Positions 11,812 through 31,915 of a DNA stretch of 64,000 nucleotides are shown piece by piece; the first letter of the stretch is position 1, and the number at the start of each line of letters is the position of its first letter. The position numbers were made by a program, and so were the translations under genes. The DNA comes from Streptomyces sp. L2 (lineage in GTDB: Bacteria; Actinomycetota; Actinomycetes; Streptomycetales; Streptomycetaceae): contig NZ_QBDT01000001.1 in the NCBI RefSeq assembly GCF_004124325.1, positions 2,666,001 to 2,730,000 of the forward strand. Direction: 5' to 3'. The notes below the pieces were generated by a model. It did no database searches. It saw only the letters and a list, made by a program, of their open reading frames with translations, and was not told where the DNA came from.

Positions 11812-13911
11812 TCAGCCGCCGTTCCCGGGGCTGTTGAGCGCGGCACGCAACTGCTCCGGGTCGGTCGTCGGGGCGTCACAGGTGAAGTGCCGGCAGACGT
11901 AGGCGGCCGCTCCCCCGGCGACCAGCGGTCGGCCTTCCAGCAACGGGAACTCGTCGCTCCCCGAGGCCCCCACGGCGACGACCGCGCCCGGGGCAGTGCC
12001 GAGAAGTGCCGTGCGGTGCAAGGCGGTCGTCCTGTCGTCGGCGGGCAGGCTGGGGCCCCGGTACCCACCGGCGTCCTCCTCCTTCGCCGCCGGTCCGACG
12101 ACCGCGATCTCGCGGGGCCCGTCGAGGAGGGCCTCGGCGACGGCCAGCCCCCACCCGATGAACCGGGGCACGCGCGGACCGAGCGCCTTGACGACGCCCA
12201 ACGCCCGTTCGGCGGCGGCCCGGTGGGGCTCGGAGCCGGTGTGCGCGGCGTAGCTCAGCAGGGCGCCGGCCGCCGCGCTCCAGCCGGACGGGGCGGCGTT
12301 GTCGGTGGGGTCCTGCGGCCGGCGGATGAGCCGTTCGGCGTCGGAGGCGGTGTCGTACAGGGAGCCGGTGTCCGGGTCGGTGAAGCGGGCCAGCACATGG
12401 TCGACGAGCAGGCCGGCGAAGTCCAGCCAGACGCCCTCGCCGGTGACGGAGGCGAGCGCGAGGAATCCCTCGGCGACGTCGGCGTAGTCCTCCAGCACCC
12501 CCGCGTTGGCACCGGCGCGGCCGTCCCGGCTGGTGCGGGCGAGGTGGGCGTGCTCGTCGAGATGCAGCCGTACGAGGAGGTCGGCGGCGGCGACGGCGGC
12601 GCCGACCAGGTCGGGGCGGTCGAAGTAGGCGCCGGTCTCGGCGAGCGCCGCGACGGCGAGCCCGTTCCACGCGGCGACGACCTTGTCGTCCCGGCCGGGC
12701 GCGGGCCGCTCGGCGCGCTCCGCCAGCAGCCGCTCCCTGATGGACGCGGCCTTGGCCGCATCGAGCACGGGACCGTCCTGCGGGAGCTGCAGAACGGACT
12801 GCCCCTCCTCGAAGGTGCCCTCCTGCGTCACACCGAAGTACCGCGCGGCGAGTTCGGCGTCCTCCTCGCCGAGCACCTCCCGCAGCCGCTCGGGCGTCCA
12901 CACGTAGTACGCCCCCTCGACGTGCCGCCCGCTGCCGTCGTCGCTGTCGGCGTCGAGCGCGGAGGCGAATCCCCCTTCACTCGTGCGCAGTTCACGCACC
13001 ATGAAGTCGGCGGTCTCCAGGGCGACGCGCCGGGCGAAGTCGGAGCCGGTGGCCCGCCACAGGTGCGCGTACACGCGGCACAGCAGGGCGTTGTCGTACA
13101 ACATCTTCTCGAAGTGCGGTACCAAAGGTCCATGCGGGCGGGGCGTGAGTACGTACCGGTGGAACCCGCCTCCCACCTGGTCGTACAGGCTCGAACGAGC
13201 CATCGCGCCGCACAGCCCCTCTGCCATCTCCAGCGCCGCCACGGAACCGGCACGCGCATGGTGGCGCAACAGGAACTCGACCACCATCGACGGCGGGAAC
13301 TTGGTGTCTCCCTTGAACCAGCCGCTCGCCGTGTCGATGTCCCGAGTCAGTTGGAGGAGCGCCAGGGCCTGAGTCTCGTCGGTGGGCACCCCTGCGGACT
13401 CGATACTCCGCTCCCGCCCGGCAAGGTCCTTGGTGATCTTCGCGGCGACTTCACCCACCTCGTCACGCCGACTCGTCCACGCGCTGTGGACACCTTCGAG
13501 TACCTCCCGGAAGGACGGCATCCCATGGCGGGGCTCCGGCGGGAAGTACGTGCCGAAGTAGAACGGCTCCCCGTCCGGCGTCATGAAGACGGACATGGGC
13601 CAGCCGCCCTGCCCCGTGGCGGCCTGCACGGCCTCCATGTAGACGGCATCCACGTCCGGCCGCTCTTCACGGTCCACCTTGACGGACACAAAGTGCTCGT
13701 TCATGTACGCAGCGGTGTCGTCGTCCTCGAAGGACTCATGTGCCATGACGTGGCACCAGTGGCACGCGCTGTAGCCGACGCTCAAGAACACGGGGACGTT
13801 GCGCCGCCGGGCTTCTTCGAACGCGCCGGCCTCCCATGGCCACCAGTCAACGGGGTTGTCCGCGTGCTGGAGGAGGTACGGGGACGTGGCCTGCGCGAGT
13901 CGGTTGGGCAT
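11812..13911 (-). CDS. YyaL-type (DUF255/SSP411 thioredoxin-fold) protein, hybrid across the island junction
   Basis: A full-length 699-residue protein of the YyaL/SSP411 family: an N-terminal thioredoxin-like domain with [16 protein letters not shown] (residues about 48-63) and an (alpha/alpha)6 barrel-like remainder. Its molecular role is not established. The 14-bp junction core at 13106-13119 falls in VPHFEK, so residues up to about 268 come from the integrated element and the rest is chromosomal. The element half departs from the family at usually fixed places: [10 protein letters not shown] where the stub at 31.9 kb has [10 protein letters not shown], and [13 protein letters not shown] where the stub has [11 protein letters not shown]. 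The ATG at 13911 gives [15 protein letters not shown], matching the family start. The promoter must therefore lie in the element. Confidence 0.88.
13106..13133. other. attL: left junction of the integrative element
   Basis: The 14-bp core TTCTCGAAGTGCGG (13106-13119) is shared with the right junction at 31902-31915. On the element side it is followed by AAGGTCCAT (13125-13133), the exact inverse of ATGGACCTT at 31882-31890 at the other end of the element. On the chromosome side is GTCGTACAACATC, coding the family motif MLYDN. Confidence 0.85.
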
Positions 13912-13983
13912 ACCCCCATCCTTGCGCACACCGCCTCCGCCCCGCCCATGCGCCACGGGGGAAGGACGCACGGACGGGGCCGC

Positions 13984-14154
13984 TCAGTGCTCGCGCGGCC
14001 GGACCGGCTGACGAGTGGCTGCGCTGCGCCACCACCACAGCCCCCGACAGGCGGGCAGGGAGCGCCCGAAGAACGCCCCGCACCGCGCGCACCACGGCAG
14101 CCCGCTCTCCGCGTCCGTGGGGCACTCGTCGGCGCAACGGGGGCACTTCGGCAC
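13984..14154 (-). CDS. Small zinc-ribbon protein (56 aa)
   Basis: A 56-residue protein with two CxxC pairs, CPRCADEC and CARCGAFFG, spaced like a zinc ribbon, followed by a basic and tryptophan-rich tail. No function can be given; such short proteins often bind zinc and nucleic acid or a partner protein. The GTG at 14154 puts the first cysteine pair at residue 4. It lies 11 bases after the DUF397 gene on the same strand and is probably co-transcribed with it. Confidence 0.55.
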   Translation of the reverse strand: MPKCPRCADECPTDAESGLPWCARCGAFFGRSLPACRGLWWWRSAATRQPVRPREH

Positions 14155-14165
14155 GGGGCCTACTC

Positions 14166-30173: not shown

Positions 30174-30182
30174 GCGTCGAAC

Positions 30183-31844
30183 TCACTTCTCGGTGGTTGT
30201 GTCCTTCTTCGACAGCCAGTCGAACTCAAGCCGTTCCAGGATCGGGGTGTGGTCCCCCTGCCGCGCGGCCGGCTTGACCGTGATGCCCTTCTTTCCAAGG
30301 GCGCACTTCAGGAGCATCCTCTTGTCCGCCATATCCGCCGCTTCCCATGCCTCACGCAGGGTGTCGACCTGCGTGAGGGGCGAGAGGTCTGCCTCCGCGT
30401 CCAGCGCCTCAAGGGTCGCGGTGGTGCTCTCGATGACGGCGCGCTGTCCTTCGCTCAGCTCCTCGAAGCGCTCTTCGTCCATCTTCCCGTACACGTAGAA
30501 GTCGTCTTCGAGCTTCTTCACACGCCGCTGAGCGGCCTCAAGGGCCTTCTGAGCCTCGTCCTTCTTCGCCTGCGTTTCGGGGTCCGCGAAGGCGAGCCAC
30601 CGGCGGGCTATCTCGATGACCACCGGGGCACCAGGCTCAAGGGCCGTGATGTGGTGGACCCAAGCCTGTCCAACCGCGTGGTCGATGCGGTCGGCGAGGG
30701 TCACCACTCCCTCGCAGATGGACTTGCCCCGCGTCTGCCGGACCTCACACCGGTAGCGCCCGCCACGGTGGCTCATCGAACCACCACACGACTCAAGTTC
30801 CCCCGTGCCTTTCTTGTCCCGTAGCCGCCCGCATCGGTAGCTCCCCGTGCCCAGATACTTCGCTTCCGGCTTCCCCTTCGCCCACCGTTCGTCGGTCCGC
30901 TCGGCAATGAGCGCCTTGATCTTGAACCACTCGCCCGGCGTCACGACCCCCTTGCCGCACATGATGACTTCGCCCTTCTCATTGCGCAGAGGCTCGCCGT
31001 ACCCCTCCCAACTGTCCAAGGGGTTGCCGTGCTCGTCCGTCTTGCGCCGCCGGACCGGGACCATGCCGGCGAAGAGCGGGGACTGAGCCAACTTGCTCAC
31101 CGCCGTGGGCGACCAGGTGGCACCGCTCCGGGTCCGGTACCCCTCCTTATTGAGTTGGTGGGCGGTGTCCTTCGTCGTCTTCTTGTCGAGCAAGAGGTCC
31201 GCCAGCCTGCGGGCTGTGTCGTACTCGTCGGGATGGGGTTCGACCTTGCCGCTTCCGGGCGCGCTGTAGAGACCGAACGGGGGCCTGCCCGTTCCCCTTC
31301 GGCCTTCCGCCTTGTGCGAGTCATGGCCGATCTTCACGCGCTTCGCTATGTCCTTCGCTTCCTCCCTGGCACGTTCGCTCAGGATCGCAAAAACCATGCG
31401 GCCACCCTGTGAGGAGTCCAGCCCTTCGGAAACGGAAACGAGCCGCGATTGCCGGCGGTCGAACTCGTCCAGCATCCGGCCCACCGCTCCCATGCCGCGC
31501 CGGTCGAAGCGGTCCGTCTTCCACACGCCGAGCGTCTTGGACTTTCCGTCCATGATCGCTTGGGTGGCCTTCTCGAACTCCCGGCGCCTTACGTAGGTCT
31601 TGGAAGCCGAGAGTTGTTCAAACCAGACGTGCCGGATCTGAAGTCCGTTCGTCTGCGCCCAGCGCACCACGTCCCGCAAGTGCCCCCGCAGCGTGGCCAG
31701 GTCTTCCTTCTTGTTGCTCCGTCGCAGGTAGGCGTCCATGAGTCCGGACGGCTCGGCCGTCGCGGGTTTGTCCAGGCCCAGGGCTTCCAGGTCCTCAGGG
31801 CCGAGCCCCAACCCGACCAGCGTCGCGTGATCCTCGCGCACCAC
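30183..31844 (-). CDS. Large serine recombinase (phage-type integrase)
   Basis: A 553-residue large serine integrase. The resolvase-type catalytic domain opens with DAYLRRSNKKEDL (nucleophile Ser about residue 43), then TDRFDRRGMGAVGRMLDEF and SERAREEAKDIAKRVKIGH. The recombinase domain follows (DTARRLADLLLDKKTTKDTA). A zinc domain has YRCGRLRDKKGTGELESCGG with later Cys in YRCEV and SICEG. A coiled coil (QKALEAAQRRVKKLEDDFYV) sits inside the C-terminal domain that controls direction. The gene lies 58 bp from the right junction, the usual place for the integrase of such elements. The start is one of two adjacent GTGs behind GAGGGGG; 31841 is equally possible. It should recombine the attP and attB sites in yyaL described here. 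Confidence 0.93.
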   Translation of the reverse strand: MVREDHATLVGLGLGPEDLEALGLDKPATAEPSGLMDAYLRRSNKKEDLATLRGHLRDVVRWAQTNGLQIRHVWFEQLSASKTYVRRREFEKATQAIMDGKSKTLGVWKTDRFDRRGMGAVGRMLDEFDRRQSRLVSVSEGLDSSQGGRMVFAILSERAREEAKDIAKRVKIGHDSHKAEGRRGTGRPPFGLYSAPGSGKVEPHPDEYDTARRLADLLLDKKTTKDTAHQLNKEGYRTRSGATWSPTAVSKLAQSPLFAGMVPVRRRKTDEHGNPLDSWEGYGEPLRNEKGEVIMCGKGVVTPGEWFKIKALIAERTDERWAKGKPEAKYLGTGSYRCGRLRDKKGTGELESCGGSMSHRGGRYRCEVRQTRGKSICEGVVTLADRIDHAVGQAWVHHITALEPGAPVVIEIARRWLAFADPETQAKKDEAQKALEAAQRRVKKLEDDFYVYGKMDEERFEELSEGQRAVIESTTATLEALDAEADLSPLTQVDTLREAWEAADMADKRMLLKCALGKKGITVKPAARQGDHTPILERLEFDWLSKKDTTTEK

Positions 31845-31881
31845 AACCCCCTCTGTGCTCAGGGGAAATGGTACGGAATCA

Positions 31882-31915
31882 ATGGACCTTAGACAGCTAC
31901 TTTCTCGAAGTGCGG
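31882..31915. other. attR: right junction of the integrative element
   Basis: The element arm ATGGACCTT (31882-31890) is followed after 11 bases by the shared core TTCTCGAAGTGCGG (31902-31915), then chromosomal CACGACCCAGTC. Joined with the left element end, it gives a 48-bp attP whose outer nine bases are perfect inverted repeats centred in the core. Confidence 0.85.

Follow-up and report, generated by a model that had tools for sequence, protein, structure and literature searches.

The analyzed window, a 64,000-nt stretch of the Streptomyces sp. L2 genome (contig NZ_QBDT01000001.1, positions 2,666,001 to 2,730,000), contains a yyaL gene (DUF255/Thioredox_DsbH) that is interrupted at its HFEK codons by an 18.8-kb island. 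A full-length copy of yyaL lies at 11812-13911 and a truncated copy, a 5' half, at 31889-32695, both on the minus strand. Up to a 14-bp core, TTCTCGAAGTGCGG, the copies can be aligned almost from their start codons, with 69% amino acid identity. This core is found as two exact copies in the window, both encoding HFEK, and no third copy was detected there even with one mismatch allowed (0 expected from 100 shuffles). Beyond the core, the truncated copy reads HFEK-VAV-stop, and a large serine integrase gene starts about 45 nt past this stop (Table 1). An earlier note on this DNA had claimed that the core lies at the same codons of both copies and that the integrase sits at the right junction, and both observations held. 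Refinement of the crossover centers, with GA as the central dinucleotide on the minus strand, sets the length of the element at 18,796 bp. No further yyaL gene, nor a 3' half for the truncated copy, was found elsewhere in the source genome (G000, 8.07 Mb).

The flanks of the island were also expected to be contiguous in genomes lacking it. This was the case in all four island-free relatives read (G003, G016, G020, and G246), in which the flanks form a single gene joined at the core; the right flank (the native 5' half) is 85-88% and the left flank (the 3' part) 80-82% identical to these relatives at the nucleotide level. The host 5' half is 87-88% identical to those of G003, G016, and G020. 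The truncated 5' half groups with the same three genomes in a 79-row tree of 5' halves (Shimodaira-Hasegawa-like approximate likelihood ratio test (SH-aLRT) support of 97), as does the 3' part of the full-length copy in a 70-row tree of 3' halves (SH-aLRT 90). Therefore, these two parts were once one gene. Two complete yyaL genes, which would have contradicted the earlier note, were present in none of 41 relatives, 40 of which have yyaL; a second 5' half lies beside an element in G000 and G022, and yyaL is in two pieces in G008 and G297. At the genus level, a yyaL 5' half was found in 293/295 genomes and two 5' halves only in G000, G022, G209, and G269, which are exactly the four of the 295 genomes with an integrase at least 94% identical. 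Of 42 native yyaL genes examined (41 genomes), 39 contain the core TTCGAGAA, and the integrase could therefore serve as an integration tool for Streptomyces.

The 5' half carried by the element is 95.9% identical in amino acids to the G269 element copy and 69% identical to the native copy. In the 5'-half tree (79 of 80 rows, after exclusion of a truncated copy of less than 200 aa; broken copies such as that of locus L035 failed the length filter of the trees), the 20 element-type 5' halves form a single clade (SH-aLRT 99). Nine truncated copies scatter among the natives (8 changes, compared with a shuffled mean of 8.7), and in the 3'-half tree the corresponding halves of these hybrids are dispersed. 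It should be noted that the native genome G024 is present twice in both trees. An enlarged tree, built from the 20 element-type rows, seven added rows, and 18 chosen natives, gave an element-type clade of 26 rows with support of 100/99; the S. humicola 5' half, once counted in this clade, was dropped from it on the basis of this tree. In Actinomadura parmotrematis (L036), an element-type 5' half 84% identical to that of the window is fused to a host 3' half that is 62% identical.

Amino acid distances between hybrid 5' halves track those between integrases (r = 0.74, reached by 0/5000 permutations) and do not track those of the 3' halves to which they are fused (r = 0.27, 447/5000). The calculation covered 15 loci; in the other three of the 18 that have both an integrase and a hybrid, the two are on separate or partial contigs. 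When Actinomadura and S. humicola were removed, the two values were 0.54 (1/5000) and 0.01 (1963/5000). The distances of the truncated copies follow the 3' half at the opposite end of the island (r = 0.87, 18/5000; 7 loci). In a sample of 14 element-type, 8 truncated, and 12 native copies, the median ratio of nonsynonymous to synonymous substitution rates (dN/dS) was 0.13 for element-borne halves (91 pairs) and 0.20 for natives (66 pairs); judged by this ratio, the element-borne 5' halves are under purifying selection. The rebuilding of yyaL as a hybrid, as proposed in the earlier note, is thus borne out at the sequence level by an intact frame, a single clade of element-borne halves, and this low dN/dS. 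The element was further said to supply a start codon and a promoter. The start codon is part of the element-borne half; as for the promoter, about 45 nt upstream are alike in most, not all, element-type copies (that of S. sp. CG 926 differs), and this conserved stretch is probably the promoter of the hybrid.

The island is best read as a site-specific integrative element, driven by the serine integrase, that uses the HFEK region of yyaL as its host attachment site (attB) and supplies a replacement 5' half; we give this reading a probability of about 93%. Genome comparison shows the borders, the empty site, and the origin of each half, and likewise the element attachment site (attP) dyad, the recurrence, and the decay series described below. 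In this reading, attP would lie at the 3' end of the yyaL 5' half carried by the element, and recombination at the central GA by the presumably active integrase would swap the halves. The element 5' half, with its start codon and probably its promoter, would be joined in frame to the host 3' part, and the host's own 5' half would remain as a stub directly upstream of the integrase. Because the element carries its own front half, the gene would survive as a hybrid with a predicted functional product. In older insertions, the stub, the right junction (attR), and the integrase are seen to decay and the hybrid gene to persist; after such decay, the putative excision reaction could no longer restore a working gene.

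Twenty-two integrase loci were found by scanning species genomes from GTDB. Counting whole, broken, and contig-cut genes of at least 67% identity, the integrase is found at 20 loci, including the window and G269, and all 20 are at yyaL. A hybrid yyaL whose 5' half ends with the arm motif of attP is present in 18 of these 20 loci, 17 belonging to one clade and the remaining one being S. humicola, in which the integrase is 67% identical and the layout is complete, with a 15-kb island (L132/L137). The truncated host half was detected by tblastn, complete or broken, in 11/18 loci, and the other seven have a degenerate remnant just upstream of the integrase. A 21st locus, G316, has a deleted integrase and was found with the arm pattern. 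In 20 loci, the serine integrase adjoins attR or a remnant of it. A second architecture, with the integrase directly upstream of yyaL, was considered and rejected, as a decayed attR upstream of the integrase marks these loci as eroded insertions. No yyaL match was found in the fetched DNA of four scan loci with more distant integrases (45-54%) or of 11 viral loci (51-65%). The plasmid collection contained only two weak integrase matches, and the phage collection no yyaL 5' half; a single match of 52 aa, located at one end of a phage-labeled contig of 4.5 kb, was set aside.

The attP site is a dyad around TTC-GA-GAA, with one arm inside the yyaL reading frame. The motif AAGGTCCAT of the hybrid arm, at positions 16-24 from the center, matches the integrase-side arm at 9/9 positions, and over positions 13-24 the arms share 10/12 (0/20,000 shuffles were as good). 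In the structure of a Listeria integrase, the zinc domain contacts attP through a motif (ZD motif) at positions 16-24 (PMC3783163), the same positions as those of the arm motif in the window. The coding arm in the hybrid is typically GGA CCT TTG GTA, giving a protein that typically reads G-P-L-V-P-HFEK, and elsewhere in these genes such codons are seldom used (CCT, 4% of Pro; TTG, 8% of Leu; GTA, 6% of Val). Because the motif lies in the reading frame, the arm is recombination site and protein at once. TTG was used in 13 of 14 hybrids adjoining an integrase and in 1 of 6 others, a count over 20 genes whose rows are related and which is not a significance test. Four integrase-bearing loci added later have TTG in three cases and TGG in S. 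humicola; G381 and G407 have TTG without an integrase, having been found by a pattern that favors TTG. This arm pattern matched 9/392 genomes, once in each and always inside a hybrid yyaL, and the reversed control gave 0. On the other side, the integrase-side arm provides the in-frame stop of the truncated copy, and a conserved TACCAT-like stretch lies between attP and the integrase start, which bears on the idea of a promoterless integrase.

The closest phage integrase found is that of Streptomyces phage Rowa (NC_047906), with 64% identity. A homologous dyad lies just upstream of it (18/30 positions symmetrical; 16/30 in the window), at the end of the open reading frame (ORF) gp58, which ends with HGPLIPHFEK-stop; Rowa has ten yyaL-like codons only. 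Rowa shares the integrase type and the dyad with the yyaL element but has no yyaL 5' half, and the searches run gave no yyaL match in it. From its sequence, Rowa is predicted to integrate into yyaL, a predicted attB, without rebuilding the gene; the yyaL 3' part would then be joined to an ORF of 69 aa. A gp58 search of 392 genomes, which had no positive control, found no lysogen with such a fusion.

An element-type yyaL 5' half was found in at least 10/293 genomes, a count that covers the listed loci whose gene tails were read, and in four of the ten it is accompanied by an integrase of 94% identity or more. G290 and G025, together with G381 and G407, are nested inside the integrase-bearing clade and have a hybrid yyaL with no detectable integrase nearby; from this nesting, integrase loss is likely in all four. 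No integrase remnant was detected in the 14-20 kb fetched at each of them; G290 retains a DUF397 remnant. The hybrid yyaL therefore appears to have outlived the element in a few species. Treating all six integrase-less genomes of the ten as scars was dropped, as the tree puts G030, G057, G075, and G082 outside the integrase-bearing clade.

Short yyaL 5' remnants ending at the CHWC codons (about 50-53) and followed by a stop were also observed, at L037 (2682-2843 and 8075-8197), L046 (637-792), L120 (11807-11956), and L124 (12496-12645). G025 and G075, two different species, have nearly identical remnants. These remnants may mark a second insertion point in yyaL for another element. Between the yyaL remnant and the hybrid yyaL of G025 (L120, 8334-11089) are genes with SMODS and SAVED domains, resembling a cyclic-oligonucleotide-based antiphage signaling system (CBASS), and the locus can thus hold defense cargo.

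Several observations weigh against the integrative-element reading. The arm-bearing 5' half of S. humicola falls outside the element-type clade, on a long branch of unsure position among the natives; it could be an independent capture or the result of recombination with the host. Intact truncated copies are not under relaxed selection (nearest-native dN/dS of 0.06-0.18), which fits recent insertion, so that the death of truncated copies is seen only in the broken or eroded cases. The integrases of ISL-43 and H27-S2 are 94-95% identical and their 5' halves 81%, a disagreement indicating that modules are sometimes exchanged between elements. G030, G057, G075, and G082 have an element-type half but lack an integrase; they branch together as a sister group to the integrase-bearing clade and may represent either old scars or the lineage from which the element took its half. 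At LUP47B (L040) and SID12501 (L044), integrase remnants precede a native-type yyaL 5' half, and these loci are left unexplained by the simple model. The ZD-like motifs in the attB arms, where they would be expected about 5 bp further inward than in attP, are weak as judged by eye. Finally, no excised circle, recombination directionality factor, or transfer gene was identified for the element. As a separate observation on L040 and L044, their element-type half was either lost or never present.

Some of these points are what would be expected if a foreign yyaL had donated the 5' half through ordinary homologous recombination, the integrase element being a bystander: a matching integrase is missing from 6 of the 10 genomes whose 5' half is of the element type, the sister group makes up four of these six, and modules are sometimes exchanged. 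However, element-type sequence extends up to the HFEK core in hybrids, 5'-half distances follow the integrase, a deleted integrase persists at G316 and the DUF397 remnant at G290, and the arm codons are written for attP, so that we hold this explanation to be quite improbable. If yyaL had been duplicated in tandem, one copy then truncated, and unrelated DNA inserted in between, two homologous copies, 69% identical, would lie near each other. This scenario is hardly credible given that island-free relatives have a single gene, contiguous in all four of them, to which the truncated copy and the hybrid's 3' part correspond, that the full-length copy has a 5' half from a distinct clade spanning species, and that the same layout recurs with the same integrase. 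The island also encodes a Phage_integrase-family tyrosine recombinase (28398-29549), which might mobilize the whole island instead of the serine integrase. This gene lies in a 12.65-kb bay missing from the G269 element, whose yyaL ends are the same, and it is the serine integrase that adjoins attR or its remnant in 20 loci; we give this possibility next to no weight.

Within the integrative-element reading, we tentatively consider, at somewhat less than even odds, that the process amounts to one-way domain replacement. Each arrival would replace the thioredoxin-like front of YyaL with one whose coding sequence doubles as an attP arm, and decay of the displaced half would make the element half indispensable and entrench the swap, so that the chimeric yyaL would outlast the integrase. 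The origin may be a Rowa-like phage attP with ten yyaL codons, and S. humicola may represent a second, independent capture of a host half gene. The integrase may be the second cistron behind the adjoining yyaL front, the host's when integrated and the element's when circular.

Rescue of a target gene is known from other elements. In staphylococci, insertion of staphylococcal cassette chromosome (SCC) elements by Ccr serine recombinases at the end of rlmH leaves the gene intact, and it concerns only the last codons of the 3' end. The yyaL element, in contrast, replaces a 5' half with its start codon. Streptomyces phage integrases of the phiC31 type are likewise large serine integrases with an attB inside a conserved gene; to our knowledge, the known examples interrupt their gene. 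SXT/R391 and dusA-specific elements use tyrosine recombinases. SXT/R391 integrative and conjugative elements (ICEs), at prfC, and dusA-specific elements such as IMEVchUSA3 insert in the 5' part of their gene and supply a new promoter and an in-frame N-terminus (PMC8409611, with SXT as cited there). Like them, the yyaL element supplies in-frame 5' coding sequence, here with a predicted promoter. Those elements swap a short N-terminus (35 aa compared for dusA; PMC8409611), whereas the yyaL element brings about 267 codons. It also differs in having a serine integrase and no tyrosine recombinase at the att end, and an attP arm in frame. Serine-integrase ICEs of streptococci either disrupt the target gene or, at rumA, swap 3' ends (PMC4701971). 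As in the yyaL element, gene ends are exchanged at rumA between target and element by a serine integrase, but it is the 3' parts of rumA and the integrase gene that are exchanged, in another frame (PMC4701971). The attB of phage Samy lies in a radical SAM gene (PMC12924846).

Our search of the open-access literature found no paper on yyaL as an attB and none describing a serine integrase that substitutes a large 5' portion of a gene. The description of the arrangement as unusual in the earlier note thus stands for serine integrases, as far as searched, but not for 5'-side rescue with a new promoter, which is known from prfC and dusA (PMC8409611); a serine-integrase case of this size was not found in that search. 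The results suggest that serine-integrase elements, which in most descriptions interrupt their target, are able to overcome this difficulty as the SXT and dusA islands do, and on a far larger scale that involves a whole N-terminal domain. From a phage that lacks the half gene, through intact and then decaying elements, to a chimeric gene with no integrase, the stages form a natural series that allows tests of gene rescue, mobile-element entrenchment, and mosaic evolution of a conserved gene.

The features of the element and its surroundings are listed in Table 1. Its closest relative, the G269 element, spans 5.6 kb between the cores (yyaL 5' half, a few small ORFs, the DUF5753 regulator, DUF6879, and integrase), and its DNA is contiguous across the interval of the cargo bay. 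Other elements with both junctions measured are 3.0 to 8.0 kb long, and the S. humicola island is 15.0 kb. Among 20 scanned ORFs, yyaL and the integrase included and some small ORFs not covered, there was no Pfam match to transfer or mobilization domains (TraB/FtsK, Rep, relaxase) or to phage structural or packaging domains (PHROGs was not run). PADLOC gave no match for ten proteins (cargo and tyrosine recombinase), and no terminal repeats of the cargo bay were found within 300 bases of each end.

Table 1 Features of the yyaL element and its junctions in the window
Feature	Positions	Strand	Remarks
Host-derived 3' part of hybrid yyaL (DUF255/Thioredox_DsbH family)	11812..13109	-	3'-half tree and nucleotide identity to island-free relatives
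Left 14-bp shared core	13106..13119	+	Crossover center 13109|13110
Element-borne yyaL 5' part: codons 1-267 and first base of 268, including Thioredox_DsbH domain	13110..13911	-	
attP arm motif AAGGTCCAT	13125..13133	+	Positions 16-24 from center, inside hybrid frame
Conserved stretch of about 45 nt 5' of element-borne half	13912..13956	-	Probable hybrid promoter (leaderless type, -10-like AAGGAT)
DUF397 protein	14166..14474	-	Pfam PF04149
HTH_31/DUF5753 regulator	15108..15962	-	92-95% homolog in G269 and S. blattellae elements
DUF6879 protein	15966..16487	-	Adjoins regulator in G269 and S. blattellae elements too
Variable cargo bay, about 12.65 kb	17033..29686	.	PLAT protein, glyoxalase, HNH-like protein, tyrosine recombinase, unassigned ORFs
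Large serine integrase, 553 aa	30183..31844	-	PF00239 and PF07508 (Resolvase and Recombinase domains) above cut-off
attP arm motif ATGGACCTT	31882..31890	+	Inverted copy of left arm, positions 16-24; overlaps TAA of truncated copy
Right 14-bp shared core	31902..31915	+	Crossover center 31905|31906
Original host yyaL 5' half, severed by insertion	31906..32695	-	Continues to VAV-stop in element DNA (31889)

With its tyrosine recombinase, the cargo bay may itself be a second mobile element or contain one. A 717-aa ORF (25776-27929) with no Pfam, NCBIfam, or PADLOC match adjoins a weak HNH-like ORF (25083-25712), and a stand-alone C-terminal fragment of HSP70 lies at 20979-21521. The PLAT-domain protein (18832-20442) has a long, acidic array of repeats built from 21-nt units (19878-20440), and a 39-nt inverted repeat, 95% complementary and without a spacer, is found at 24333-24410.

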